Shown here one piece after another: positions 13,653 through 64,000 of a DNA stretch of 64,000 nt; position 1 is the stretch's first letter; every line of letters begins with the position of its first letter. The DNA comes from Flammeovirgaceae bacterium SG7u.111. Its GTDB lineage: Bacteria > Bacteroidota > Bacteroidia > Cytophagales > Flammeovirgaceae. The notes below the pieces were generated by a model that saw only the letters and a list, made by a program, of their open reading frames with translations, was not told the origin of the DNA and searched no databases. The stretch is taken from assembly GCA_034044135.1 (NCBI GenBank), contig CP139021.1, forward strand, positions 1,503,635 through 1,567,634, written 5' to 3'. The position numbers were made by a program, and so were the translations under genes.

Positions 13653-13683
13653 CAAAAATAATGAACATATGTTTATTATTCAA
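13653..13683 (-). promoter_or_regulatory. Bacteroidota-type promoter of the DUF134-NifX operon
   Basis: Read on the minus strand, TATTTTTG (complement of 13653-13660) matches the -7 element TAnnTTTG and TTG (complement of 13681-13683) matches the -33 element, with 20 nt between them, inside the usual spacing for the Bacteroidota primary sigma factor. The transcript would start near 13646 and reach the ATG at 13636 after a very short leader. Confidence 0.65.
13657..13680. promoter_or_regulatory. Palindromic operator 1 (between -33 and -7 of the DUF134 promoter)
   Basis: A 24-bp palindrome with one mismatch, centred on AACATATGTT, fills the spacer between the promoter elements of the DUF134 operon, an ideal place for repression. 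Its core GAACATATGTTT nearly matches the core of operator 2, 30 bp away. Confidence 0.65.
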
Positions 13684-13684
13684 A

Positions 13685-13712
13685 AATATTACGAACATAT
13701 GTTCATAATATT
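13685..13712. promoter_or_regulatory. Palindromic operator 2 (upstream of the thioesterase -7 element)
   Basis: A 28-bp palindrome with one mismatch, core GAACATATGTTC (13693-13704). It ends 3 bp before TACCTTTG (13715-13722), a match to the TAnnTTTG -7 element for the plus-strand thioesterase gene; no good -33 TTG is seen there. The centre is 30 bp from operator 1, about three helical turns, so both dimers would face the same side of the DNA. Confidence 0.6.
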
Positions 13713-13748
13713 TATACCTTTGGTCATCTATCTTATTTCGAAACAACT

Positions 13749-46057: not shown

Positions 46058-46355
46058 GTTACATGATATATGAGAGGAGAGTAGGAAAATTATGCTTTTT
46101 TAAGGAGTAGGATAAAAATAATCAGTGATAAACGTTCTTAAGTAGTGGATGAAAAAAGCTTTGTTAAGCTGGATTCTTCGGAGAAATAAGGGGGGCTGAA
46201 GTCTTGAACATGAGCACGGCTGTGCTGTTAAAGCAACATAGGAGCATGCGTAGCAGCAGAGACGCCATTTGGACAGGTGGGGAAGGTGTCTAGGTATCTT
46301 ACAGGATAAGAACAAAAAAAGTATCCATGTTAAAGATTTACTAAAAAGGTAAGAA

Positions 46356-46391
46356 ACAAAAAAGGTCTGAAGAAAAACTCCTCCAGACCTA
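46356..46391 (-). terminator. Intrinsic terminator of the 46427-47050 gene
   Basis: Minus-strand AGGTCTG (complement of 46384-46390) pairs with CAGACCT (complement of 46363-46369), then a T run. It follows the stop at 46427 by 36 nt. Confidence 0.75.
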
Positions 46392-46426
46392 ATCGTCAAC
46401 TTAATTGATTTATAGAAAGTCTATTG

Positions 46427-47050
46427 TTACTCTACATTATAAACCTGCTCTTTTACATCGTTTCCACTGCTTATGCGGATAGTGTAACGTCCTTTGTTCA
46501 AGGTGCTCATGTCAAATACATTACTAAAGTTTTCAGCACTTACAGATTTGCTATAAAGCGCTTTCCCTTCATCGTTTAAGATCGAAAGCCTCACTGGGCT
46601 AGTAGCATGTTGGAATGCAACTCTTACTTTGTTGTTTAAAGCTTTTTGAGGCAAGAAAGCTGAGTAGTTGCTTTTTGTTTCGCTACCCACGTTCACACGG
46701 TGGATAGTAGTGTAATCAGCAGCAACTATTTTTACTACATACTCACCGTTTCCAACTTTGCTCATATCATAGTTCCTTTTTTGGAGAGCTTTGTTGTTGT
46801 TTACATCGGTAAATATCAAGTTCATTTCCTTGTCGTATATTTTTACAGTAACTCTCGCTGCATTGCTTTGCTCATAAGCTACACGGATTTTTTGAGAGTT
46901 ATTCACAGCATATATGCTATAGGCGAAGTCTGAAGTAGCGCGAATGCTAGAATGTACCTTACCATCTACAGGGCTGGCAACAGCCATACCTGACATTAAA
47001 AACATAGCAACTACTAAAGCTTTGATGGCAGATAATGACAAATTTTTCAT
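46427..47050 (-). CDS. Secreted beta-sandwich protein, paralogue 1
   Basis: 207 residues; signal peptide to about 25 (MAVASP). Two similar modules follow (about 45-125 and 130-207), each with a KIRVAYE / KVRVAFQHATSPVRLSIL strand pattern and a MSKVGNGEYVVKI / MSTLNKGRYTIRI ending, like the beta sandwich of T9SS C-terminal domains but without the usual YPNP start. The neighbour at 47428-48054 is about half identical, position by position. Function unknown; the gene has its own terminator. Confidence 0.75.
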   Translation of the reverse strand: MKNLSLSAIKALVVAMFLMSGMAVASPVDGKVHSSIRATSDFAYSIYAVNNSQKIRVAYEQSNAARVTVKIYDKEMNLIFTDVNNNKALQKRNYDMSKVGNGEYVVKIVAADYTTIHRVNVGSETKSNYSAFLPQKALNNKVRVAFQHATSPVRLSILNDEGKALYSKSVSAENFSNVFDMSTLNKGRYTIRISSGNDVKEQVYNVE

Positions 47051-47427
47051 GGCGATAATTATGTTTAAAGTGTGTTTTATTTAAATAATTGATAAAAAGG
47101 ATGTTGTGAAATTCTTAATTTGTTACTCTTGCTTTTATAACGTGCAATTATCTTATAGGTTGCGTATAATTCAAAATATTATTCTATAATTATTTGAATT
47201 AACATTTAATTAATTTTAGATAAAATGATATAAAACCAATATAACAAAGGTGGTGTATTTAAAATAATATCGACTGAATTGATGAATTGATAAAAATATC
47301 AGCCAGAAATTATAAATAATAAAATTTGTGTGTTTTTGAAATTTCTTTTTTAGCAAAAGAAAACCCGCCCTTCGAGCGGGTTTTAGTCTTATCAAACGGG
47401 AAAACGAGAGTTTATATTCAGTTATTA
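47051..47427. other. Intergenic region between the paralogues
   Basis: 377 bp, very AT-rich. It holds the terminator of the upstream paralogue (47355-47384) and presumably the promoter of the 46427 gene. No gene seen. Confidence 0.5.
47355..47384 (-). terminator. Intrinsic terminator of the 47428-48054 gene
   Basis: Minus-strand AAAACCCGC (complement of 47376-47384) pairs perfectly with GCGGGTTTT (complement of 47360-47368), followed by CTTTTGC. The symmetric A/T ends allow use in both directions. It lies 44 nt after the stop at 47428. Confidence 0.8.
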
Positions 47428-48054
47428 TTATTTCAAAGTGTATTCTTGTGTGGTGGTTTGTCCATCGCTGCTCATAGTCACTGTATAAGTACCAGACTTA
47501 AGCGTAGAAAGGTTGAATACACTGCTAAAGTTTTGTTCTTTCATTGTCTTGCTATAGATGCTTTTTCCATCCTTGTTTGTAACAGAAACATATACAGGTT
47601 TTGATGCATGCTGGTAAGCAATCCTTAACTTGTTGTTGGTAAGTTCTGGAGACAAGTAGCCTGAAAAAGGCATCGCTTCTTTTTTGCCTACATTCAGCCT
47701 GTGGACTGTAGTATAATCAGCAGCTACAATTTTTACGATATACTCTCCATTGCCCAAAGCACTCATATCGTAATTTCTTTTCATGTAGTTCAAATCTTTT
47801 TGAATATCATTATAAAGGAGGTTCATCTTGTTGTCAAATATTTTCACAGAAACCTTTCCCTTGCCATATTTTTCGTAGGCAACTCTTATTTTATTTGAGT
47901 TCAAAATTGGATATATGCTATAAGCAAATTTAGAAGTGGCTTTTATTTTTTCACCATCTTTTCCTTTTATAGGATTAGCCATTGTGAAAGAGGTCATCAA
48001 GATGGTAATGGCGATAAATAAGGCTTTTACAGAATTAACAGCAGTTGAGTTCAT
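47428..48054 (-). CDS. Secreted beta-sandwich protein, paralogue 2
   Basis: 208 residues; signal peptide to about 27 (FTMANP). Same two-module build as its downstream neighbour: KIRVAYEKYGKGKVSVKIFD, the identical linker VKIVAADYTT, then KLRIAYQHASKPVYVSVTNK and STLKSGTYTVTMSS. The pair clearly arose by tandem duplication and each has its own terminator, so they can be expressed separately. Function unknown. Confidence 0.75.
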   Translation of the reverse strand: MNSTAVNSVKALFIAITILMTSFTMANPIKGKDGEKIKATSKFAYSIYPILNSNKIRVAYEKYGKGKVSVKIFDNKMNLLYNDIQKDLNYMKRNYDMSALGNGEYIVKIVAADYTTVHRLNVGKKEAMPFSGYLSPELTNNKLRIAYQHASKPVYVSVTNKDGKSIYSKTMKEQNFSSVFNLSTLKSGTYTVTMSSDGQTTTQEYTLK

Positions 48055-48788
48055 ATCGGTGTAATAAGTTTTTTAAATAATTAATTTGACGAGAACCCTA
48101 GTTTCAATACAAGTGCCAAAAGAGTTAAAGTATTGATAATTAATCATATACAGTTAATAGTGCTATTTTGACCCTCACATTAAGTGTACGAAAATGTTCA
48201 CTTGTGTATAAGGTCGGACGATCTTTTGCAATTGCCAAAGCAGTTTTGTTTCCTTCCATAGCCCAATTAGGGGGAGGCTTTAAGAAGGGAATAATAAAGG
48301 GGAGGTGTATCAATAGGTTTAAACAAGTATAAAATGGTATTATTTCAATATATTGTATTTAGTACCTGTTTTAGTGTCCGCAGGCGGGAAATAGGTCAAA
48401 ATAAGGTGAGTCTGGGATTAGCGGATTATTATATAGATTGTGAAGGTAATAGTTGTTCCGTATTTGAACCCGTATAGAATTGAGCTTGGGAAGAATTTTA
48501 CGTAAGCCTTATATATAAGAGTAGCTCCCTTATCTTTTCCATGGTTTTTAAGTATTTTCCACTTACACCTTATATAGAAGGTGTTTCAAGCCATACTTTG
48601 GATAGTCTTTGTATATGTCTCTAGCACTATCGAACCTGGCTTTTGAATAAGGTCTCAAATCAATTAAGAAGTAAATAGTAGAAGTGTAACTTATACTTCT
48701 ACTATTTACTTCTATTTTTTTTCTTTCGATTATTAGACTAAATTCGCTCAAATTCAACCTATTTATAACGAAATAGCATCCCACACAT
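48055..48788. other. Long non-coding region upstream of parA
   Basis: 734 bp between the paralogue gene (minus) and parA (plus). Contains the palindrome at 48667-48713 described separately. A minus frame over 48563-48808 reads through the palindrome and overlaps the parA start, so I do not count it as a gene. The rest is featureless. Confidence 0.5.
48667..48713. promoter_or_regulatory. Long palindrome upstream of parA (possible centromere/operator or terminator)
   Basis: Nineteen-bp perfect arms AGAAGTAAATAGTAGAAGT (48667-48685) and their complement (48695-48713) around nine bases that can pair further to leave a 1-nt loop. Eight T residues follow closely on the plus strand, so it has the shape of an intrinsic terminator, yet no plus-strand gene lies upstream for over 2.7 kb. 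Its place 76 bp before parA suggests a partition or regulatory site. Confidence 0.6.
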
Positions 48789-49454
48789 ATGAGTGCTAGA
48801 ATTATCACATTTGCGACACAAAAAGGAGGGGCTGGGAAAAGTACATTGTTAATGCTTACTGCTGCTGCTTTTCATAACAGAACCAATAAGAAGGTTTTGG
48901 TAATTGACTGCGATCCGCAGAAGTCGGTAAAGGATATGTACCAACACGATGAGAGTGAATTTTCTTATGATGTGATCGCTTACAACTGGAAAAAACCTCG
49001 TCCAGAGGTCAATTTTCAAAAAACATTGGCCATAGCCGAAAAAAAATATGACCTTATCTTCATTGATGCTCCGGGTAAAGTAGAGGGCAAGGAGGTTTAT
49101 TTCAGTATTTTGATTTCCGATATAGTTATGGTGCCTGTGGTGGGGAGTATTTTGGACTTGAAGGCTACGGTCAACTTCCTGAAAACTTTGCCAACTATCC
49201 GAGAGATAAAGGAAAATGAAGGATTTGTACTAAATGTGTTCGGAATAGTAAACAAAAAGGACAATACAGTAGAGTACCATGACTTAGAGCAACTGAATGG
49301 AATAGGGGGGCTACAGCTTTTCGATTCATATATTTCCAACTTGGCTAGGTACAAAAGAGGTATTTCCACTGTGAACGACATCACAAACCAATATGATGAG
49401 AATGATGAGTTCAACCAGTATTATGAGGAGTTTAAGCGCAAGTGCTTGGTATAG
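48789..49454 (+). CDS. ParA family (MinD/ParA) ATPase
   Basis: 221 residues. The deviant Walker A KGGAGKST is at residues 12-19, the A' motif VIDCDPQKS at about 39 and Walker B-like LIFIDAPGK near 92. The short form without an N-terminal helix-turn-helix fits type Ib plasmid partition ATPases and orphan ParAs that position other cargo. A small basic protein gene follows by 170 nt. The region looks like a plasmid or genomic-island remnant, but no replication, integrase or conjugation gene is present. Confidence 0.88.
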   Translation: MSARIITFATQKGGAGKSTLLMLTAAAFHNRTNKKVLVIDCDPQKSVKDMYQHDESEFSYDVIAYNWKKPRPEVNFQKTLAIAEKKYDLIFIDAPGKVEGKEVYFSILISDIVMVPVVGSILDLKATVNFLKTLPTIREIKENEGFVLNVFGIVNKKDNTVEYHDLEQLNGIGGLQLFDSYISNLARYKRGISTVNDITNQYDENDEFNQYYEEFKRKCLV

Positions 49455-49624
49455 ATAGCAGTTAGTACGAGGCAAGCCTTTAGAAATACATGTTCTTGAT
49501 GATATTAAACCAATGAGGAGGTGATAATTTTCCTACTTGCGAAATAGACATAAAAACTTTAGTTTTCTTCTTATATTAATACGAAGGTGTACGTAGGAAA
49601 TGAAAAATAGAAACAGAGAAGATC

Positions 49625-49921
49625 ATGAGCAACAAAAAATCAAAGTCGGATTTAATATTCGAAGCACTAAAGAAAAACGAAAGTAGGGGAAATAAAGCTG
49701 ATTTGGGCTCGGAGCAATTGCTCAATTTTACCAACTTAGATATTGACTCCATAAAGCCAAAAAAAACTCAAGTAGAATATGCTTCGGTAAAGATAAAAGT
49801 AGAGCTTTTTGAGCGAATAAAATTAATAGCAGAGTCGTACGGAATTAAGCAACCAGGAAAGTTTATAAGCCTGATTTTAGAGTCCTATTTGAAGCAGGCA
49901 GAGGGCGATGAAAATGAATAA
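49625..49921 (+). CDS. Small protein, likely ParA partner (ribbon-helix-helix-like)
   Basis: 98 residues. The N-terminal half is basic and disordered (MSNKKSKSDLIFEALKKNES); the C-terminal half YASVKIKVELFERIKLIAES then KFISLILESYLKQAE (about 52-93) fits a strand followed by two helices as in ribbon-helix-helix DNA-binding domains. Position after parA matches the small centromere-binding partners of type Ib partition loci. This is inference from layout and predicted fold. Confidence 0.6.
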   Translation: MSNKKSKSDLIFEALKKNESRGNKADLGSEQLLNFTNLDIDSIKPKKTQVEYASVKIKVELFERIKLIAESYGIKQPGKFISLILESYLKQAEGDENE

Positions 49922-50189
49922 GGCTGAAGAAAGAAGAGAGGTCCTGAATTATGTAGGTTTTAAGCATTGATTTTGTTTTAAGCCTATTTTAATTGAGAAA
50001 AGTAGCATAAATTGCATTCGAAAAATAGACCATACCTTAACCATCATAAATAACTACCAAATTTATAGCTGCTCAAATGTATTGAAGTGATTTTATTGTC
50101 CAAAAGCGTTCGTGAATTCGAATGTTTTTCTGGATTTTTCTAAATGTAATATTAGCTTTAAAGCAGTTCATATTTTAAATATTTCAACA

Positions 50190-52463
50190 ATGCTAAGGGA
50201 GAGTTTCCAACAAAAGAGAGAGTTAAAGGCCAGAGATATAAAGGGCGACCTAGTGGTTATAGGAGGCGGTATGTCCGGTATTTGCTGTGCAATTACGGCA
50301 GCTCGCGCTGGCATTAGGGTAGTACTTATCCACGATAGGCCTGTGCTAGGAGGCAATGCCTCTAGCGAGGTGAGGCTTTGGGTACAAGGAGCTACCACCC
50401 ATATGAGCAATAACAATAGGTGGGCAAGAGAAGGTGGGGTGATCAATGAAATTTTGGTCGAGAATCATTTCAGAAACTCAGATGGGAATAGCATTATCTT
50501 CGATACTATTTTGCTTGAAAAAGTACTGGCTGAGACCAATATTACCCTGCTGCTTAATACTTCGGTATATGAATTGAAAAAAGATGGGGAGGATAAGATT
50601 AAGTCTTTAAAAGCTTTTTGTGGGCAGAATGCCACTTTTTATAAGATCGATGCTTCTTTTTATTGCGATTCGTCAGGCGATGGAATAGTTGCCTACCTTT
50701 CTGGGGCATCTTTTAGGATGGGCGCCGAGCCAAAAGAAGAGTTTGATGAAGATTTTGCTCCAGATGCTTCGTTTGGTGAGCTTCCAGGACACAGTATATA
50801 TTTCTATACTAGAAAAACATCAAAGCCGACCACTTTTGTTGCCCCAGCTTTTGCAAATAAAAATATAGATAAAATACCTCGTTTTAAGAGTTTTGACATC
50901 AATGAGAAGGGTTTCAAGCTTTGGTGGATAGAATACGGGGGAAGGCTCGATGCCGTTCAAGATACCGAAACCATTAAGTGGGAACTTTGGAAGATCGTGT
51001 TTGGGGTTTGGGATTATATCAAAAATTCGGGAAAATATCCTGAAGCAGAATGCCTTACGCTCGACTGGGTAGGGTCTATTTCTGGAAAAATGGAAAGTCG
51101 TAGGTTTGAAGGTTTGTATATGCTTAACCAGCATGATATCATCAACCAAACTAATTTTCCCGATGCTGTTTCTTATGGGGGATGGCCGATAGACCTGCAC
51201 CCATCAGATGGGATTTACAGTAATTCTCCCAAATATTGTCAGTGGCATTCTGCTGGTCTATATCAAATCCCTTACCGTAGTTTGGTGAGCAAAGACATTA
51301 AAAACTTGTTTTTGGCAGGACGTATCATAAGTGCAACGCATGTAGCATCTAGCTCGATAAGAGTGATGGGAACTTGCTCGCAAAATGCCCAAGTAGTAGG
51401 AATGGCCGCTGCACTTTGCAAGAAAAACAATGCGATGCCGCATGATTTTGTAGGAGGGCCTAACTTGAAGCGTTTACAAAAAGAACTTGTAAAAACAGGT
51501 CAATACATTCCCGGACTTCAGTTGGGCGACACGCTCGATTTATGTGCTAATTGTGATATTACAGCATCTAGCAGTTTAGCGTTGGCAGAGCTTCCTGCCG
51601 ATGGCCCTTGGCTCAAGCTCGATCGTTCAGTCATTCAAATGATTCCTTTTGATAAAGGCAGTTCGCCAAGTTTTACGGTAACTGTAAAGGCTGCGAAAAA
51701 ATGTGAATTAGAAGTACAGCTACGCCAGAGTGAAAAAGCATTGAACTTCACACCTGAAATCACGCTAGAAGTACAGTCGGTTGAGTTGGAAGCTGGTGAG
51801 ACTGAGGTCAGTGTCAATTTTATGACTACCCTCACAAAAACAGGCTACATTTATATTTGCTTTGCCAAAAATGAGGACGTAGAGGTCAGGTGCTCTAATC
51901 AAAGAGTTACAGGTTTGCTCACACTTTTTGGTCAGGAAAAAAATGAAACGCAAGGTGGGCTGATCAAGAGTGATAGAATAGGGGACTTTGAGTTTTGGAG
52001 TCCAAAAAGGAGACCAGCAGGGCAAAATTTAGCTTTTGAAATAAAACCTGCTTTGAAAGTTTTTGCGGCAGGAGAAATGAGAAACGGAATAACGCGCCCC
52101 GCAATTATGCCTAATGCATGGGTTGCCGACCTAAAAGACAAACAGCCAGAGCTACACCTCAAGTGGGAAGAACCACAAACTATCCGGAAGATTAGGATGG
52201 CTTTCGACACGGATTTCGACCACCCAATGGAGTCGGTTTTGGTAAGTCACCCAGCCAATATCTCTCCTTTTGTGATTAGGAATTACCAAATTCTGAACGA
52301 TAGGGAAGAGATTATTTATGAGAAAAAAGGAAATTACCAGACAAGGAATATCCTGAATTTTATGGATAGCCCACTGGTTACAAAAGAAATAACAATACGT
52401 TTTGAGCATCCATCGGAAAATATACCTGCCGCTGTTTTTGAGATCAGGTGTTATGAAAACTAG
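50190..52463 (+). CDS. FAD-dependent oxidoreductase (pfam12831-like) with C-terminal beta domains
   Basis: 757 residues from the ATG at 50190; earlier in-frame codons (from 50112) are AT-rich leader. The Rossmann motif LVVIGGGMSGICCAITAARA (about 21-40) is followed by VLGGNASSEVRLWVQGATTH, typical of the FAD-dependent family PF12831, and FLAGRIISATHVASSSIRVM with GTCSQNAQ near residue 385. About 300 further residues form beta-rich domains of unknown role. No signal peptide. It is isolated, so substrate is unknown. Confidence 0.8.
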   Translation: MLRESFQQKRELKARDIKGDLVVIGGGMSGICCAITAARAGIRVVLIHDRPVLGGNASSEVRLWVQGATTHMSNNNRWAREGGVINEILVENHFRNSDGNSIIFDTILLEKVLAETNITLLLNTSVYELKKDGEDKIKSLKAFCGQNATFYKIDASFYCDSSGDGIVAYLSGASFRMGAEPKEEFDEDFAPDASFGELPGHSIYFYTRKTSKPTTFVAPAFANKNIDKIPRFKSFDINEKGFKLWWIEYGGRLDAVQDTETIKWELWKIVFGVWDYIKNSGKYPEAECLTLDWVGSISGKMESRRFEGLYMLNQHDIINQTNFPDAVSYGGWPIDLHPSDGIYSNSPKYCQWHSAGLYQIPYRSLVSKDIKNLFLAGRIISATHVASSSIRVMGTCSQNAQVVGMAAALCKKNNAMPHDFVGGPNLKRLQKELVKTGQYIPGLQLGDTLDLCANCDITASSSLALAELPADGPWLKLDRSVIQMIPFDKGSSPSFTVTVKAAKKCELEVQLRQSEKALNFTPEITLEVQSVELEAGETEVSVNFMTTLTKTGYIYICFAKNEDVEVRCSNQRVTGLLTLFGQEKNETQGGLIKSDRIGDFEFWSPKRRPAGQNLAFEIKPALKVFAAGEMRNGITRPAIMPNAWVADLKDKQPELHLKWEEPQTIRKIRMAFDTDFDHPMESVLVSHPANISPFVIRNYQILNDREEIIYEKKGNYQTRNILNFMDSPLVTKEITIRFEHPSENIPAAVFEIRCYEN

Positions 52464-52550
52464 CATCGAGTAAGTGAGAAATAGGGTTTTGTTTTTCAGC
52501 TTTCTTCACGCTAGCACAGCTTGGTGCTTCTTTTCGATAAAAATGAATGG

Positions 52551-53516
52551 ATGATTTCTATAGTAATACCTATTTATAATGAGGAAGAAGTCCTCCACCA
52601 GCTCTACGAACGAGTAACGGCAGCTAGCCCAAGTTGGAAGGAGGATTATGAGCTGTTATTGGTTAACGATGGCTCAGTAGATGCATCGTTGGAGATTATG
52701 CAGGGCTTGGTAAAAAAGGATAGCAGGGTGAAGGTGATCCAGCTTTCCCGAAACTTTGGTCACCAAGCGGCAATTTCTGCAGGAATTAAGTCTGCCGCAG
52801 GAGATGTAGTGGTGATTATGGATGGAGACCTCCAAGATCCTCCCGAAGAACTCCACCGGTTTTTGGACAAATGGCGTGAGGGCTACGATGTGGTATATGC
52901 CATTCGCACCAAGCGAAAAGAGAATATATTTAAGAAGACAGCCTACTTTTTCTTCTATCGTCTGCTAGGTTTCATTAGCGAAATTCCCATCCCACTCGAT
53001 AGCGGGGACTTCTGTGTAATGGATAAAAAGGTGGTAAAAGCACTCAACAACGAACTTCCCGAGAATATCCGATTTGTTCGCGGTTTGAGGGCTTACGCTG
53101 GTTTCAAACAAATAGGAGTCGTTTACGAACGCAACAAGCGAGCTGCCGGAGAGGCAAAATATACATTCAAACAGCTAATGAAACTTGCTCTGGATGGCAT
53201 TTTTGGCTTTTCTACCTTCCCTCTCCGAGTCGCAACTTATCTAGGTTTTATCATTGCCATTCCTTCTTTTTTAATAGGTGTGTTCTTCGTGGTGCACAGG
53301 CTTATTGGCTTTAAAATATTAGGCTATTCCCCAAGTGATACGCCCGGTTTGGCAACGTTAGCCGTGGGCATGTTTTGCCTGAGCGGGGTAATGCTCATTA
53401 TCTTGGGGATTTTGGGAGAGTATGTGGGAAGAATCTACATCGAAGTAAAAAAAAGACCTTTTTATATAGTAGAAGATATTTTCACAGGGAAACCTCCTTC
53501 TAAAGAAAAAGAATAG
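52551..53516 (+). CDS. Glycosyltransferase family 2, GtrB/DPM1-like
   Basis: 321 residues from the ATG at 52551 (a TTG at 52521 is the only upstream option). SIVIPIYNEEEV starts the GT-A domain; VNDGS and MDGDLQDPPEELHRF hold the nucleotide and metal sites. Two C-terminal membrane spans (about 230-255, 265-295) and the polar ending are as in GtrB/ArnC-type enzymes that make polyprenyl-phosphate sugars at the inner membrane. Sugar unknown. Confidence 0.9.
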   Translation: MISIVIPIYNEEEVLHQLYERVTAASPSWKEDYELLLVNDGSVDASLEIMQGLVKKDSRVKVIQLSRNFGHQAAISAGIKSAAGDVVVIMDGDLQDPPEELHRFLDKWREGYDVVYAIRTKRKENIFKKTAYFFFYRLLGFISEIPIPLDSGDFCVMDKKVVKALNNELPENIRFVRGLRAYAGFKQIGVVYERNKRAAGEAKYTFKQLMKLALDGIFGFSTFPLRVATYLGFIIAIPSFLIGVFFVVHRLIGFKILGYSPSDTPGLATLAVGMFCLSGVMLIILGILGEYVGRIYIEVKKRPFYIVEDIFTGKPPSKEKE

Positions 53517-58235: not shown

Positions 58236-58559
58236 TTATTCGAATAGTTTTTTAATCTGCAAATTTTCTGCTACATCAATTGCTGTTTTGCCGTTTTTTG
58301 CTTTTATCGTTGAATCCGCTCCCAAATCAATCAGTAGTTTTACGGTTTCAGCATATCCAAATTCGGAAGCCATATGCAGAGGTGTATAGCCACTATTTGT
58401 TATTTTATTTATTTCAGCACCATTAGATATCAAGTAACTGGCTACTGTTGTTTGTCCATGAGTTGCGGCTGCATGTAATAAGGTATATCCATAAAACCTG
58501 CTCGCATTCACATCCAATCCTAAATCAACAAGTTCCTGCACGATTTCAAGATGCCCCAT
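58236..58559 (-). pseudogene. 3' fragment of an ankyrin-repeat gene, out of frame with 58546-60411
   Basis: 107 codons from MGHLEIVQELVDLGLDVNAS, about three ankyrin repeats ending with the family's C-terminal IKKLFE. It overlaps the upstream frame by 14 nt: there ...NGAS stops and here MGHLE begins within the same ATGGGGCATCTTGA. The missing part of one repeat between NGA and GHL, and the shared ATGGGGCA, indicate a short deletion between direct copies. It is probably translated poorly, if at all. Confidence 0.75.
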
Positions 58560-60411
58560 TGTATCTTACCATTTTTATGTCTGCTCCAGATTTGATAAGA
58601 TATTTTAGGATTTCAATATTGCCATTTGCTGCAGCTACGAAAAGGGGTGTTTTGCCAATATTATCGGCTTTGTTGACATTTGCGCCTGAACCAATCAATT
58701 GTTTCACTATACTAAAATAACCTTGTTCTGCTGCCTTATAAAGAGGAGTTATTCCACTATTTGTTACTTTATTCACATCTGCCCCAGCGGCAATAAGCAA
58801 GCGTGCAATTTCCAAATCCTTTAGAAGCAAAGCCGTATAAAGCGGGGTGCTTCCATTATAGGTCGCTTTGTTTATATCTGCCCCTGCCGCAATAAGAAAC
58901 TTAACTAATTCTTTATTACCCATCAGGGATGCTAACCACAGCGTGGTTTCGTGTTTCAACGTCGTGCTATTAGGATCTACACCGGCAGCCATAAGTAGCT
59001 TGGCAATTTCTACTTGCTTGTGGTGTATTGTTTGATGTAAAAGTGCCTCCCCAAATACCATTTTATTCGGGTCAGCGCCAGCATCAAGAAAAAGCTTCAC
59101 GGCTCCTGCCTTTTCATTTATTACTGCCCAATACAGTGGTGTTCTTCCATATTTATCCTCTTCTTTATTAACATCATAACCTGCTTCAATTAATTGTTTT
59201 ATGATATCAAACCGACCTTCATCTAATGCAATAGAAAGCAACATGTCATCCTTGTTTTCATCTGTTTGGTGAGCGCCTGCGGCAGTCAATAACTCAGTGA
59301 TCGAGGTATTCTTTTTTGAGCTGGCCAAATCCAAAGCCGATTCTCCATGAGCAGTTAACACATTAATAGCTGCTTTTGCAGTAAGTAGTTGTTTTACCAC
59401 TTCCTCCTGATTTTTGTAAATAGCAGTGTACAATGGGGTTTCTCCTCTTGTATTCTGTGCATTTAACTCGGCTCCAGAATCAATGAGAAGATTTACTACT
59501 TCTGTATTTCCAGCTTTAGATGCTAAATAAAGCGGTGTTTCACCTTGATTAGTCCTGCTGTTTATGCTGGCTCCGGCAGCAATTAGTATTTCAACAATTG
59601 CTACATGTCCTTTAAGCGAAGCTTCGTGCAAGGCGGTTTTTCCATCGGAACTTAATAGGTTAATATCGGCCCCTAAACCCAGCAACAGTTTTACCATATC
59701 CGTATGCCCTGAGTTTGATGCCATTGATAGTGCTGTTTTTCGGTAAATATCTGTATCGTTGATATCTGCACCAGCCGCAAGTAGTAGTTTAAGGATTTCG
59801 ATACGGTTGGCTTGCGCTGCCCCATGGATAGGTTTGGTCCCTCCTTTGGCCACAGCAGAGACCTCTGCTCCTGAGCTAATAAGAAGTTTTACTATTTCTA
59901 GATGTCCTTTGTAACATGAAAATAAAAGGGGGGTAAATCCTTTATTACTCCTTGTATTTACCTTTGCTCCTGAGGCAATCAGTTGTTTCACCAAATCCAA
60001 GTGTCCCTTATCGGATGCTATTAAAAGTGGAGTATTGCCTTTTTCATTTGTTAAATTCACGTCGGCTCCTTTGCTTATTAGGTATTGCGCTACTGCCCAA
60101 CGTTCTTCTTCTGTAGCGGTATATAAGGGGGATTCTCCCTTGGTGTTATACTGGTTTATATGAGCACCCGAACGAATGAGTGACTTTACTATATCTAAAT
60201 GTCCGTAATGTGAAGCCCAAAAAAGAGCTGTCTGTCCATCAGTATCTATTTTATTCAGATCGGACTCTTTCTTGATGATCTTTTTTGTTTTTTTACTGTC
60301 AGGACTTTCTTTTTTAATATGGTTTATCAACTGAAAATAGGTAGAATCCTGCCCAAGACTGGTTGTACAGAAGTAAAATAAAATAAAAAGGGTTGAGAGG
60401 GTGCTTTTCAT
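58546..60411 (-). CDS. Exported ankyrin-repeat protein (truncated by frameshift)
   Basis: 621 residues from the ATG at 60409-60411. Signal peptide MKSTLSTLFILFYFCTTSLG. The N-terminal leader PDSKKTKKIIKKESDLNKID matches its tandem neighbours. Then about seventeen ankyrin repeats of the form GxTPLxxASxxGHLEIVxxLIxxGADINxx run to the stop. The frame ends abruptly within a repeat; the true C-terminus lies in the next frame at 58236-58559. Export of long ankyrin proteins to the periplasm or surface is notable; partner unknown. Confidence 0.8.
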   Translation of the reverse strand: MKSTLSTLFILFYFCTTSLGQDSTYFQLINHIKKESPDSKKTKKIIKKESDLNKIDTDGQTALFWASHYGHLDIVKSLIRSGAHINQYNTKGESPLYTATEEERWAVAQYLISKGADVNLTNEKGNTPLLIASDKGHLDLVKQLIASGAKVNTRSNKGFTPLLFSCYKGHLEIVKLLISSGAEVSAVAKGGTKPIHGAAQANRIEILKLLLAAGADINDTDIYRKTALSMASNSGHTDMVKLLLGLGADINLLSSDGKTALHEASLKGHVAIVEILIAAGASINSRTNQGETPLYLASKAGNTEVVNLLIDSGAELNAQNTRGETPLYTAIYKNQEEVVKQLLTAKAAINVLTAHGESALDLASSKKNTSITELLTAAGAHQTDENKDDMLLSIALDEGRFDIIKQLIEAGYDVNKEEDKYGRTPLYWAVINEKAGAVKLFLDAGADPNKMVFGEALLHQTIHHKQVEIAKLLMAAGVDPNSTTLKHETTLWLASLMGNKELVKFLIAAGADINKATYNGSTPLYTALLLKDLEIARLLIAAGADVNKVTNSGITPLYKAAEQGYFSIVKQLIGSGANVNKADNIGKTPLFVAAANGNIEILKYLIKSGADIKMVRYNGAS

Positions 60412-60949
60412 GTATTGACTGATTGGATTCATTACAAAATTTGGTATGAAATGGTTAATTATTCCAGAAGGTTTTTTTTAATCTCTCCATTTTCTGCCTT
60501 GTCAAGTGCTGTTTTACCATTTTTGTCTTTTATATTGGACTTAGTTCCTAAGGAAAGAAGGTGTTCAACAATTTCTTTATGACCTCTAGGCTCGGTGGAG
60601 AGGTATGGCACCTTTGTTATCTATGATATTAGGATTTGCCCCTGTCTCAATTAGGAGTTTTACTATTGTTAAGTATCCTCTACCAGCTGCTTGGAATAGG
60701 GGTGTTTTTTCTTTTAAATTAGGCTTGTTGACATCAGCTTCAGCGCCTGAAGTCAGCAATTGCTTTACAATGCTTGTATGGCCATTAATGGATATCAAAA
60801 GAAGAGGGGTCATGCCTTTAGCGTCTTTATAGGTAAAATGGGCTCTTTTTTAATCAAACTATTTATGATTTTAGAATCGGGGAATTCTTTTGTGCTTTCA
60901 TTTATCAATTGACTATCAATTTCCTCTTGTCCAAAACTGTAGAAGTAAA

Positions 60950-60957: not shown

Positions 60958-62091
60958 GGTTCTTTATGAATTTACTTGAAACTGGTATTTTGCAAATACA
61001 AAGTAAATCATCTTGATGAAGTTGTCTTTAGACCGAAACCCTCTAGCAACCCGTTTAATGATTTGAATTTTAGAATTGAGCCCCTCTAAGATACCGTTAT
61101 TAATCTTAGATTGAGCGTATTGAACAATTCCATCAAAATGGCTTTTAATCGATTTAGTGATCGGATTGGTTTCCATGGTTTCCTGGGCGAGGTCCATAAT
61201 GAAGCACAGTTGGGCTTTTAGCTCTTGAAATTGATCTTTCCGATAAAAAGTACCTATCCTTTCCATTGATAGTTCAATTTGAGCTTGAAAGCAATAAGCC
61301 TTTTCCCCAAGTCGATCTAGATGTTTGTAGAGAAGTTTGATCACATGCCATTTGTCAAAAGTAACCTTAGCCTGTGGAAAACACTGTTTGGCCCCCTTGA
61401 TGAAGGCAGGGGACATATCAATGGAAATTTCTTCTACTGCTTCTGGATAGGGATGATCTTGCTTAAATCGGGCAACACATTCAGAAGATCTACCTTCGTA
61501 ACTACCGAGTAGTTGCCAAGTATCTAGATCAAAAAAGCTGGTGATGTATCCATGTCCCTTACGGGTAGGGGTTTCATCATAAGCAATCCTAGAGGCTGTA
61601 TGCTGGCTATAGTAGTCATCTTCAAGATGTTGGGTATAATGATGATAAATATGCTCAACCCGTTGGACTCGAATGCCAAGTGTCCTGGCTACTGCCGTAA
61701 AACAATGGTGGATATGCATCAAACGCATGACTTCTTGCTCAAACATAAGTGTGAACCGCGAATAATCTCTAGAAAAGGAAACCTCTGCCTTAGATAGTTT
61801 ACCGGTATCCCTATCTTTGTATATAGGAAGCTTACAATGGATAAAACAGCGGTATTGAAAAAGCTTTAAGTGTTCCCAGGTACGGTCGTAATAGCTATGA
61901 ACAGAGCATTTTTTTGGGGTAGCTTCAGGTGAAACCTCTAAATATAGATGTACGGTGTTGCTAGGCTCGTCACGTTCTGCTAGAACTAACTCAAAAGGTG
62001 GTAGAACAGGAAGTAAGTCACTAAATTGAGATAGAAAATTCATCGTTTTTTGAATACAAAGATAAGCGTTCAAGTAAATTCATAAAGAGCC
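60958..62091 (-). mobile_element. ISL3-family insertion sequence, 1134 bp
   Basis: Ends are inverted repeats GGTTCTTTATGAATTTACTT and GAA (left, 60958-60980) and GGCTCTTTATGAATTTACTT and GAA (right, reverse complement of 62069-62091), one mismatch in 23. The 8-bp direct duplication TAAGAATT on both sides is the size made by ISL3 elements. It holds one transposase gene, whose stop codon lies in the left end. It splits the signal peptide of the ankyrin gene. Confidence 0.9.
60964..62043 (-). CDS. ISL3-family transposase
   Basis: 359 residues from the ATG at 62041-62043 (a TTG ten codons upstream, at 62071-62073, overlaps the right end). The DDE core is read as IAYDETPTRKGHGYITSFFD, ISIDMSPAFIKGAKQCFPQA with FDKWHVIKLLYKHLDR, and NNGILEGLNSKIQIIKRVAR with the glutamate. 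The length matches the family minus an obvious N-terminal zinc finger, though C-x-H residues near 35 are present. The frame is intact, so the copy may still be active. Confidence 0.9.
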   Translation of the reverse strand: MNFLSQFSDLLPVLPPFELVLAERDEPSNTVHLYLEVSPEATPKKCSVHSYYDRTWEHLKLFQYRCFIHCKLPIYKDRDTGKLSKAEVSFSRDYSRFTLMFEQEVMRLMHIHHCFTAVARTLGIRVQRVEHIYHHYTQHLEDDYYSQHTASRIAYDETPTRKGHGYITSFFDLDTWQLLGSYEGRSSECVARFKQDHPYPEAVEEISIDMSPAFIKGAKQCFPQAKVTFDKWHVIKLLYKHLDRLGEKAYCFQAQIELSMERIGTFYRKDQFQELKAQLCFIMDLAQETMETNPITKSIKSHFDGIVQYAQSKINNGILEGLNSKIQIIKRVARGFRSKDNFIKMIYFVFAKYQFQVNS

Positions 62092-62177: not shown

Positions 62178-63908
62178 TTAATCGACTAATTTTTTAATTG
62201 TTGGATCATTAGTCATATCAATGGCTTGCTCGCCGGTAATGTCTTTTATGGTGGGGTCTGCTCCTTTGGAAAGCAGATATTTTACTATTTCTGTCTGTTT
62301 GGAAAGGCATGCAAAATGGAGGGCCGTTCTTCCATCATTATTCGTCTTATTTACGTCAACACCAGCCTCGATGAGGTACTTTATGGTTTCCAGTTTTCCA
62401 GAAAGTATGGCTGATTGGAGCGTCGTCATTCCATAGTATCTTTCGATGGTATGTACATTGGCACCAGCATCTACCAATTGTGTTAGGACTCCCATATTTC
62501 CCTTGGATGCTGCAATATGGATAAGCGGTTGGTCATTGGTACTAGGTGTATTTATATTTGCTCCTGCAGCTATGAGTAGTTTCACCATTTCTGGCTTGCT
62601 TTCATTTACAGCTATGTACAAAGGTGTTTCCCTATTTTCATCTGCGGCGTCGATATCTGCCCCCTCTTTAATCAAATAACTAACCACCTCAGCTTGCCCA
62701 TTTTCCATGGCTGCGTATAGAGGAGTTTGCTTGCCCCTCCTTGGCGTGTCGATATTCGCACCTGATTTAAACAAGTATTGTGCAATTGCCAGATGGCCCT
62801 TTTCTGAAGCTTTGAAAAGAGGTGTTTCTCCATGCATATTTTGTTTATTTACATCGGCACCTTTTTGAATCAAAAGTTGAACTACCTCTAAGTGATTGTG
62901 CTGTGCTGCAACAAAAAGAGGAGTGTTATCAAATAAATCGACTTGGTCTACCGGTGATTGGTAAGCTAACAATAGCTTGGAAATTTCTACATGCCCTTTT
63001 TCTGCTGCAAGTATCAACGCGGTCCTTTCCTCTTTGTATTTGAGAAGAACATCTGCCCCCTTTGTTAGCAATAGGTTGACCACCTCGGTTTGGTTTTCAA
63101 AAATGGCATTGTAAAGCGTTGTTTCGCCCAATTTATCTATCTTATTGATATCGGCTCCAGCAGCTATCAATATTTCCATTATTTCTAGATGGTTGTTATA
63201 AGCTGCTGCAAAAAGAGGAAATACACCACTTTTACCTGCTAAATTTACCGATGCCCCTTTGGAAAGTAAGTATTCGACTATGGGTTTGTAACCTTGTCTG
63301 GCAGCCATACAAAGGGGGCTAATTTGAGCTACCTGATTAATATCAGCCCCTGCATTAATCAGTAATTCAACTATTGCTAGGTCATTCTGCTCTACTGCCA
63401 TCAAGAGAGGTGTATAAATACCCTCGATAACATAATTGATCTTTGCCCCTTTTGATAGCATTAATTCAATAACCTCTTTATAACCTCTATCAACTGCAAA
63501 AAATAGTGGCTTGTATCTATTGTCTATTGGCTTGTTCACATCCGAACCTGCCATAATCAGCATCTTGGCCATTGCCTCATGTTCACTTTTCAATGCAATG
63601 GTCAGGGGAGTAAAACCATCCTTATTTATTTTGTCAATTTCAGCTCCTGATTCAAGCAAATATTCGATTATCGTTAGATGACCTTTGGAGGATGCCCAAT
63701 GTAGGGAAGTGTTTTGAAGATCATCTTCATAATTGATATTGGCTCCATTCTTAACCAACTTTTTAATGACCATAATGTCAGGGTCATCTTTTTTCACTTC
63801 CTTAATCAACCGAACGTGTATGGAATCTTTTGAAATGCAGCTAACTGTAAACAAGAATAGCGCTGAAAAGGTGAATAGGGCGGTAATAGACTTTTTGTAT
63901 AAATGCAT
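62178..63908 (-). CDS. Exported ankyrin-repeat lipoprotein (intact)
   Basis: 576 residues from the ATG at 63906-63908; the sixteen in-frame codons before it do not look like a leader. Lipobox LFTVSC (about residues 19-24) makes it a lipoprotein. The leader PDIMVIKKLVKNGANINYED starts the repeat array: about fifteen ankyrin repeats such as TPLFVAAQHNHLEVVQLLIQ and KGADVN, ending TIKKLVD. It is the first and only undamaged member of a tandem set of three. Ankyrin arrays bind proteins; the periplasmic or outer-membrane partner is not encoded nearby as far as the window shows. Confidence 0.85.
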   Translation of the reverse strand: MHLYKKSITALFTFSALFLFTVSCISKDSIHVRLIKEVKKDDPDIMVIKKLVKNGANINYEDDLQNTSLHWASSKGHLTIIEYLLESGAEIDKINKDGFTPLTIALKSEHEAMAKMLIMAGSDVNKPIDNRYKPLFFAVDRGYKEVIELMLSKGAKINYVIEGIYTPLLMAVEQNDLAIVELLINAGADINQVAQISPLCMAARQGYKPIVEYLLSKGASVNLAGKSGVFPLFAAAYNNHLEIMEILIAAGADINKIDKLGETTLYNAIFENQTEVVNLLLTKGADVLLKYKEERTALILAAEKGHVEISKLLLAYQSPVDQVDLFDNTPLFVAAQHNHLEVVQLLIQKGADVNKQNMHGETPLFKASEKGHLAIAQYLFKSGANIDTPRRGKQTPLYAAMENGQAEVVSYLIKEGADIDAADENRETPLYIAVNESKPEMVKLLIAAGANINTPSTNDQPLIHIAASKGNMGVLTQLVDAGANVHTIERYYGMTTLQSAILSGKLETIKYLIEAGVDVNKTNNDGRTALHFACLSKQTEIVKYLLSKGADPTIKDITGEQAIDMTNDPTIKKLVD

Positions 63909-64000
63909 CTGAAATATTGACAAAGCTGTTTGGTAGTTGGAAAATGCTTGGCACATTTATCTTGTTATTGGTGATTTTCCTGATTACAAAATTATGTTTT

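Follow-up and report, generated by a model that had tools for sequence, protein, structure and literature searches.

What does a ParA-type ATPase with a partition-style partner do on a bacterial chromosome, and what does it carry? Cargoes as different as plasmids, chromosomes, chemoreceptor arrays and organelles are positioned by ATPases of this type, and nearby genes are usually the basis for guessing which one a given ParA serves. The stretch analysed in this study, 64,000 nucleotides of Flammeovirgaceae bacterium SG7u.111 (the window; its own genome is designated G000), carries a cassette of this kind at 48667-49921, on the 7.66-Mb contig that is the chromosome. It consists of a palindrome, a parA gene starting 75 bp after the end of the palindrome, and a gene for a small protein with a probable ribbon-helix-helix (RHH) domain, with the following features:

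48667-48713, no strand: palindrome of 47 bp, a candidate partner-binding site or operator and/or a terminator-like hairpin
48677-48693, + strand: palindrome core RGTAGAAGTNNNACTTA, which contains GTAGAAGT and adjoins AAGTATAA
48691-48698, - strand: 8-mer AAGTATAA, inside the palindrome
48789-49454, + strand: parA, 221 amino acids (aa), Walker-type ATPase, small type Ib-like ParA with the motif QKGGAGKST
49455-49624, + strand: gap of 170 bp between parA and the partner gene
49625-49921, + strand: partner gene, 98 aa, with an N-terminal tail, a variable linker and a probable C-terminal RHH

A sequence-only reading of this DNA had offered two origins for the cassette, a plasmid or island relic and a chromosomal system that positions some other cargo, and the evidence favours the second. 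The explanation preferred here, to which we give a probability of about 0.5, is a positioning ATPase of ParA type that is fixed on the chromosome and inherited vertically in the Flammeovirgaceae and one further family of the order, and for which the RHH partner is dispensable; a second, core-encoded partner and its cargo are to be expected.

Distribution, descent and selection of ParA

The sample comprised 97 genomes of the order, of which 18 (including G000) belong to a family designated f1, six to a family designated f4 and 73 to 20 other families. In all likelihood, f1 is Flammeovirgaceae, its nine-genome genus g2 is Flammeovirga and genome G001 is Flammeovirga pectinis, the last name being based on the ParA of contig G001:C3, which matches the ParA of the F. 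pectinis plasmid NZ_CP034564.1 in start coordinate and strand. One ParA ortholog per genome was found in all 24 genomes of f1 and f4, with 52-74% identity over nearly the full length, and the smallest members of f1, two genomes of 2.8 and 3.0 Mb, have retained it. No ortholog was present in the other families (73 genomes), where the best long match reached 34% identity over 192 residues. In a phylum-wide sample of 395 genomes, with at most seven candidates scored per genome, only G000 reached an expectation value (E) of 1e-45; this sample, we infer, contained no further f1 or f4 genome. Moreover, a scan of named genomes with the ParA alignment returned at least 80 loci of 23-40% identity that carry a generic Walker pattern and gave no named orthologs.

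The partner was found in 7 of the 97 genomes, all of f1 (G000, G003, G004, G005, G007, G009 and G011), and each time directly 3' of parA. It is missing from 17 of the 24 ParA-bearing genomes, including all nine Flammeovirga, and every one of these 17 is at least 95% complete; a partner profile search in them, at E up to 10, returned three implausible matches (frames of 1342 and 366 aa and one that contains stops). An orphan ParA, in the sense of one with no adjacent partner gene, is what these 17 genomes carry, and the window's copy is not of that kind. The dispensability of the partner over evolution had been missed by the sequence-only reading.

The ParA and RecA trees have the groups (G000,(G007,G011),(G003,G009)) and (G004,(G002,nine Flammeovirga)) in common, and the descent of ParA is largely vertical. 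Deep forks are unresolved in both trees; the RecA tree gives G005 a very long branch of its own and does not resolve G006 or most of f4. The ratio of non-synonymous to synonymous substitution rates (dN/dS) was estimated by the Nei-Gojobori method for 12 ParA pairs, five of which had saturated dS and gave no ratio. The remaining seven, six of them partner-less, ranged from 0 to 0.038, several of them with rough dS estimates above 1. The values were 0.006-0.019 for four partner-less Flammeovirga pairs, 0.038 for the partner-less G039-G020 and 0.014 for the partner-bearing G003-G009, and the G001-G012 pair showed zero amino-acid changes at dS 0.26. ParA in the partner-less genomes is under strong purifying selection, which indicates that it has a vertically inherited job for which the RHH protein is not needed. 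Because most relatives lost or never had this protein, the conserved job of ParA would be independent of it, and across the family ParA probably positions something other than an RHH-bound cargo. The simplest scenario places the partner in the f1 ancestor, with losses in G006 and in the group of G002 and Flammeovirga; for f4, the absence would reflect either a further loss or a later gain in f1.

These results bear directly on the idea of a plasmid or island relic, decaying or neutral, which we consider very improbable. Such a relic could account for the type Ib-like layout, for related pairs on small contigs and for the distance between parA and the partner gene, which is 2-26 bp in the six other cassettes and has widened to 170 bp in G000. 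For ParA, however, it is contradicted by the presence in every genome of two families, the RecA-like tree and a dN/dS of at most 0.04, and further disfavoured by the retention in the smallest f1 genomes and by a guanine-plus-cytosine (GC) content of 39.3% in parA (35.0% in the partner gene) against 40.1% in the window. A search for the cassette on plasmids, which the sequence-only reading had proposed, gave nothing in its favour: among 72,556 plasmid records the partner had no match at E 0.01, and ParA had 235 matches, all below 60% identity, of which the best 40 lie at 27-34%. In phages, ParA matched six records at 26-32% identity, and the partner had no relative in viral contigs. Furthermore, no replication, integrase or conjugative-transfer protein was present among the 22 window proteins scanned with Pfam besides ParA and the partner (a partial scan, in a window of 35 open reading frames (ORFs) of at least 200 aa), which agrees with the earlier statement that none lies near. 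The sole mobile gene among these 22 is an ISL3 transposase gene at 60964-62073, 11 kb from the cassette, and the 64-kb window contains no tRNA, leaving a tRNA-linked island without support.

Distantly paralogous pairs were also found. The ParA proteins of G011:C283 (an 18-kb contig) and G007:C199 (16 kb) are 48% and 44% identical, respectively, and each is accompanied by a homologous partner and a further gene. These three-gene cassettes (L039, L040, L056, L057) have the form ParA, RHH-like, Bro-N-like, the Bro-N match having been made on the G011 copy only. ParA plus RHH-like pairs on contigs of 16-18 kb, the one in G011 with Bro-N, would be consistent with an origin in a mobile element that was later domesticated. 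In L041/L042 (G007:C276, G011:C86), which are pairs of another kind, a ParA of 246 aa precedes a protein of 126-139 aa whose C-terminus is related; in the L042 copy the next gene resembles the Bro-N one by eye.

The ATPase and its small partner

The gene at 48789-49454 encodes a ParA-family ATPase with a deviant Walker A motif, as the sequence-only reading had said. Across an alignment of 21 ParAs, made up of two paralogs and 19 of the 24 orthologs, residues K12 (the signature lysine), K17, D40, D93, R187 and R190 are invariant, so that both the signature and the catalytic lysine of the deviant motif are fixed. The protein matched the Pfam profiles AAA_31 (64.6 bits), CbiA and MipZ, as well as the NCBIfam family NF041546 (ParA family partition ATPase) with 98.9 bits and E 2.7e-28, which is under the curated cut-off of 180 bits. 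The ATPase core begins at residue 3-4, with no N-terminal helix-turn-helix (HTH) or other DNA-binding domain. Type Ib ParAs are defined, in passages of PMC9178275, as proteins of about 200-250 aa with no N-terminal HTH domain, and the 221-aa product falls within this size and domain range. The closest solved structures by sequence are ParF and ParA of plasmid TP228, at 21-23% identity. An AlphaFold2 model (predicted local distance difference test score, pLDDT, 82.7; predicted template modelling score, pTM, 0.85) matched ParF best (Foldseek E 4.5e-11; Z 20.6 over 200 residues), followed by MipZ (Z 19.3), MinD (18.9), Soj (18.8) and McdA (18.4). On sequence and predicted fold, the type Ib-like label would fit, with ParF of TP228 as the closest relative.

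Among positioning ATPases of the same fold, MipZ shares the KGGAGKS motif, according to passages of PMC9178275; the Pfam MipZ profile, however, covers residues 5-125 only and scores 33.1 bits, below AAA_31. Unlike McdA, whose SGGQGKT lacks the first lysine (same passages), the protein has QKGGAGKST and is not of the McdA type. These passages also describe small ParAs on chromosomes and orphan ParAs. The ParA studied here resembles the orphan chromosomal proteins PpfA, ParI and BcsQ in that 17 of its 24 ortholog genomes have no adjacent ParB-type partner. It differs in that those proteins have described roles, as far as the same passages go, and in that the window's copy has a partner next to it.

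A role reported for ParI raises the possibility that the window's ParA acts in trans with a chromosomal or other ParB and so modifies replicon segregation or incompatibility. Several ParA-family proteins do occur in one cell, since the chromosome has two further ParA-family open frames, of 252 and 256 aa, and passages of PMC9178275 describe an orphan ParA that has this kind of effect. However, inspection by eye of the ORFs beside the orthologs revealed no ParB-like gene (no profile scan was made), and a parS consensus had no match within 3 mismatches in the window; action in trans is improbable. The second contig of G000 (G000:C2; L002, L074, L075), of 53.6 kb and probably a plasmid, has its own ParA-family frame of 319 aa.

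The partner family was aligned from seven close and four distant members. The close members begin with an N-terminal S-K-x-[DE]-L-I tail that contains lysines, continue with a variable linker and end with Y-[AS]-S-V-K-[IL]-[KR], a helix and G-[IV]-x-Q-P-G-K-F-I-S-L-I-L-E; the tail motif is missing in two of the four distant relatives. All 11 members weakly matched PHROG 582 (Arc-like repressor), with a best E of 0.001 and 0.034 for the window's member, and four of the 11 matched CopG_antitoxin (best E 0.0008). The window's partner had no Pfam family above its cut-off. On these profile matches, the 98-aa partner is a probable RHH protein. The description of the partner as small and basic stands as to size and only weakly as to charge, since the computed isoelectric point (pI) is 7.9; it is 9.0-9.6 in G007, G011, G003 and G009, 8.9 in G005 and 5.5 in G004. 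Its description as a putative RHH protein agrees with the weak Arc-like match in every member, and the monomer model does not confirm it.

The best-known counterpart is ParFGH of TP228, in which the RHH domain of ParG binds the parH centromere and the operator upstream of parFG, and the tail of ParG stimulates ParF, according to passages of PMC7308502. The locus resembles it in having a ParA of ParF size and fold with a small partner gene directly downstream, a partner with an N-terminal tail and a probable RHH C-terminus, and a candidate site upstream of the operon. It differs in being chromosomal, in the absence of the partner from most relatives, in the low ParA identity and in having one palindrome, whereas parH is an array of tetramer boxes (passages of PMC7308502). 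Moreover, judged by sequence only, the conserved charged residues of the tail are lysines, and no arginine is conserved in the seven close partner members; the system is therefore called type Ib-like and is not filed as a member of the ParF/ParG family. The type Ib layout claimed earlier is supported as regards the small ParF-like ParA with a small partner downstream.

The locus is also reminiscent of the ParA-DUF3408 pairs of Bacteroidota mobile elements, for example that of the Parabacteroides plasmid NZ_OY725772.1, in which a ParA is directly followed by a small protein. Unlike the cassette studied here, that pair lies on an element with mobA/B/C, its ParA is 29.8% identical, and the partner profiles barely match. 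DUF3408 was weakly matched by two A1 members of the partner family (best E 0.008), and hhalign of the partner against DUF3408-type proteins gave probabilities of 7.5% and 0.9%, so that homology is not established.

The palindrome upstream of parA

The palindrome is slightly larger than the 19-bp perfect one with almost no loop that had been described: its arms (48667-48689 and 48691-48713) are 23 nucleotides each, 22 of the 23 positions are complementary, and the loop is a single nucleotide. The odd pair would be G.U in RNA, and the outer 19 bp of the arms are perfect. Directly after it, on the + strand, stands ATTTTTTTTC (T8). The predicted RNA fold of 48640-48800 has -38.6 kcal/mol, compared with -19.5 +/- 3.5 for shuffles (z = -5.5). 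No other palindrome in the window exceeds the score used. A survey of 464 kb of G000, covering the window and 20 pieces of 20 kb at even spacing, yielded 26 palindromes of the same class; four of the others match or exceed the score of this one, and for 17 of the 26 the 3' end of a predicted gene (at least 100 aa) is no more than 40 bp away. Long near-perfect palindromes (L101-L120), often with no separate T run, are seemingly a common form of terminator in G000.

It is accordingly a serious possibility, though somewhat short of even odds, that the palindrome is a terminator-type hairpin only, serving as an insulator or as a leader attenuator of parA and unrelated to the RHH protein. The stem followed by T8, the folding energy and the frequency of the class at gene ends all point this way. 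However, the palindrome lies between divergent ORFs, as do two others of the 26, and the nearest upstream ORF of at least 100 aa is 612 bp away on the opposite strand, so that it is not simply a gene-end terminator; the sequence-only reading had likewise noted a T run with nothing upstream to terminate. Rfam, searched with 46300-52600, gave nothing above the gathering score; of six matches below it, three are microRNA models that fall on the hairpin. The words described below, which the palindrome has in common with upstream regions of relatives, also speak against a mere hairpin. A promoter pattern of the Bacteroidota type had 5 matches in the window, with 4.4 expected, and none upstream of parA.

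As a whole, the palindrome is not conserved. In the upstream regions (up to 420 bp) of the 24 orthologs, arms longer than 12 bp occur in G000 and G093 only, and the 16-bp palindrome of G093 is unrelated and separates parA from a same-strand gene upstream of it; a comparable palindrome is absent upstream of the other 23 orthologs. The core RGTAGAAGTNNNACTTA, however, also occurs upstream of parA in G003, G009 and G011, its start lying 71, 71 and 136 bp before the start codon, respectively (112 bp in G000), and it is found nowhere else in the 464 kb of G000 sequence. This sharing was first noticed by eye and tested afterwards, and in the later test the words were taken only from the relatives. 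The 200-bp upstreams of G003, G007, G009 and G011 have four 8-mers in common, of which two, GTAGAAGT and AAGTATAA, are present in G000, both inside the palindrome. As a control, at least two of the four words occurred in 4 of 307 of the genome's own upstream regions and in 3 of 204 AT-rich ones; when all five upstreams were shuffled, a common 8-mer appeared in 16 of 2000 trials. As G003/G009 and G007/G011 are same-genus pairs, the independent evidence comes from three genera. A conserved site in the clade of G000, G003, G007, G009 and G011 is likely but unproved, and a candidate partner-binding site within the palindrome is suggested by these words, not proved. Measured against the refuting condition set in the sequence-only reading, the whole palindrome lacks conservation beside orthologous parA genes, but two 8-mers inside it recur in the four nearest partner-bearing relatives.

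Each arm also contains two AGAAGT boxes 13 bp apart, the sole such pairs in the window. Together with the closeness of ParA to ParF, the position of the partner immediately 3' of parA in all seven partner-bearing genomes and the shared upstream words, these boxes would suit a complete ParFGH-like partition cassette on the chromosome, with the palindrome as a centromere coated by the RHH protein and that chromosomal region segregated by ParA. We nevertheless regard this as unlikely: ParA is kept in so many genomes with no partner, the whole palindrome is absent upstream of the 23 other orthologs, other ParA-family frames exist in the same genome, and paired AGAAGT boxes with at most 1 mismatch reach two matches in 8 of 100 shuffles. 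Furthermore, the site is single. At up to 3 mismatches the arm has five places in the G000 genome, two of which are the palindrome itself and three of which carry 2-3 mismatches, with no further copy below 2 mismatches; the reversed control has seven. A dispersed parS-like site is not supported by this comparison, the other near matches of the arm being fewer than those of the control. With blastn, 48600-48790 gave only short weak matches elsewhere in G000 (best E 6.7e-4).

A proposed second partner, and the genomic setting

Partners of ParA/MinD proteins are thought to work through a positively charged N-terminal stretch, according to passages of PMC10241942. Under the preferred explanation of a family-wide positioning ATPase, ATP-bound ParA dimers would sit on the nucleoid, and a partner with such a tail would stimulate ATP hydrolysis and so release ParA locally, by which the cargo of the partner would be moved or spaced. 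In G000, the adjacent RHH-like protein would be one partner, probably binding the palindrome or its core upstream of parA and acting at least as an autoregulator, as ParG does. Since ParA outlives this DNA-binding partner, a second, core-encoded partner and its cargo should exist.

Several results weigh against this explanation. Neighbour comparison, a motif search and the test of a 91-aa divergent gene revealed no second partner or cargo. Neighbours were compared over about 20 kb at 12 of the 24 loci; a three-gene block is common to G001, G002 and G004 only, a few pairs share single genes beyond it, and between most genera the neighbours are unconserved. The N-terminal motif of the partner had 29 matches in the 24 genomes, not inspected singly, compared with 15 for the reversed control; six of the 29 are known partners, and 8 of the 17 partner-less genomes had none. 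The partner monomer model has low confidence (pLDDT 67.5), no strand and no RHH match. Only one partner-bearing pair has a dN/dS value, so that equal selection with and without the partner rests on little. As for the site, the words are short and AT-rich, and shuffling G000 alone gave at least one of them in 226 of 2000 trials; they are not upstream of the partner-bearing G004 and G005, save one AAGTGTAA in G004. The pairwise upstream alignments were weak, and those of G000 do not discriminate either: of 60 shuffles, 1 reached the observed score for G011, 7 for G003, 7 for G009 and 12 for G007, but also only 6 for the partner-less G006 and 7 for the partner-bearing G005. Between relatives, the corresponding numbers were 1 for G003-G011 and 0 for G003-G007.

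The 91-aa gene (L035:2795-3070) is divergent from parA in G003, G007, G009 and G011 (two genera) and has no Pfam match; it was rejected as a co-partner, as relatives occur in 21 of the 24 genomes and lie away from parA in the other 17 (e.g. G000:C1:6177616). In G093, a genome of f4, the gene 3' of parA (L025:824-1450) looks, on visual inspection, like one for the condensin subunit ScpB.

Chromosomal small ParA positioning ATPases are already known as a kind. What would be new is the order of events, namely a vertically fixed partition-type pair in which ParA outlives its DNA-binding partner. A bolder proposal is tentative and rather doubtful: an overlooked, possibly essential ParA system for a conserved core cargo in Flammeovirgaceae and f4 might have arisen from a mobile ParA-RHH pair whose partner was later discarded in most lineages, the window being an intermediate that keeps both. 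With a ParA in every sampled genome of the family, few conserved neighbours and a partition-style partner here, the locus offers a natural experiment on the takeover of a partition ATPase for a cellular task. Among the titles and abstract openings listed by searches of an open-access library on ParA/RHH, orphan ParA, Flammeovirga, DUF3408, ParF/ParG and Cytophagales, none was about this gene; passages of a Flammeovirga genome paper concern ParA, ParB and RepA of chromosome II and a plasmid (PMC8653839).

By Pfam, the neighbours of the cassette include SusC/SusD-type genes, an FAD oxidoreductase, a glycosyltransferase, an OstA-like gene, TilS and two probable secreted-protein genes. At 46427-47050 and 47428-48054, on the - strand, two adjacent genes encode proteins of 207-208 aa that resemble each other, show DUF3244/Por_Secre_tail-like matches and may be secreted. 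The ISL3-family transposase gene sits between two large ankyrin-repeat protein genes (58546-60432 and 62178-63956), all three on the - strand. Lastly, at 13654-13713, overlapping palindromes are clustered around ACATATGT within 60 bp.

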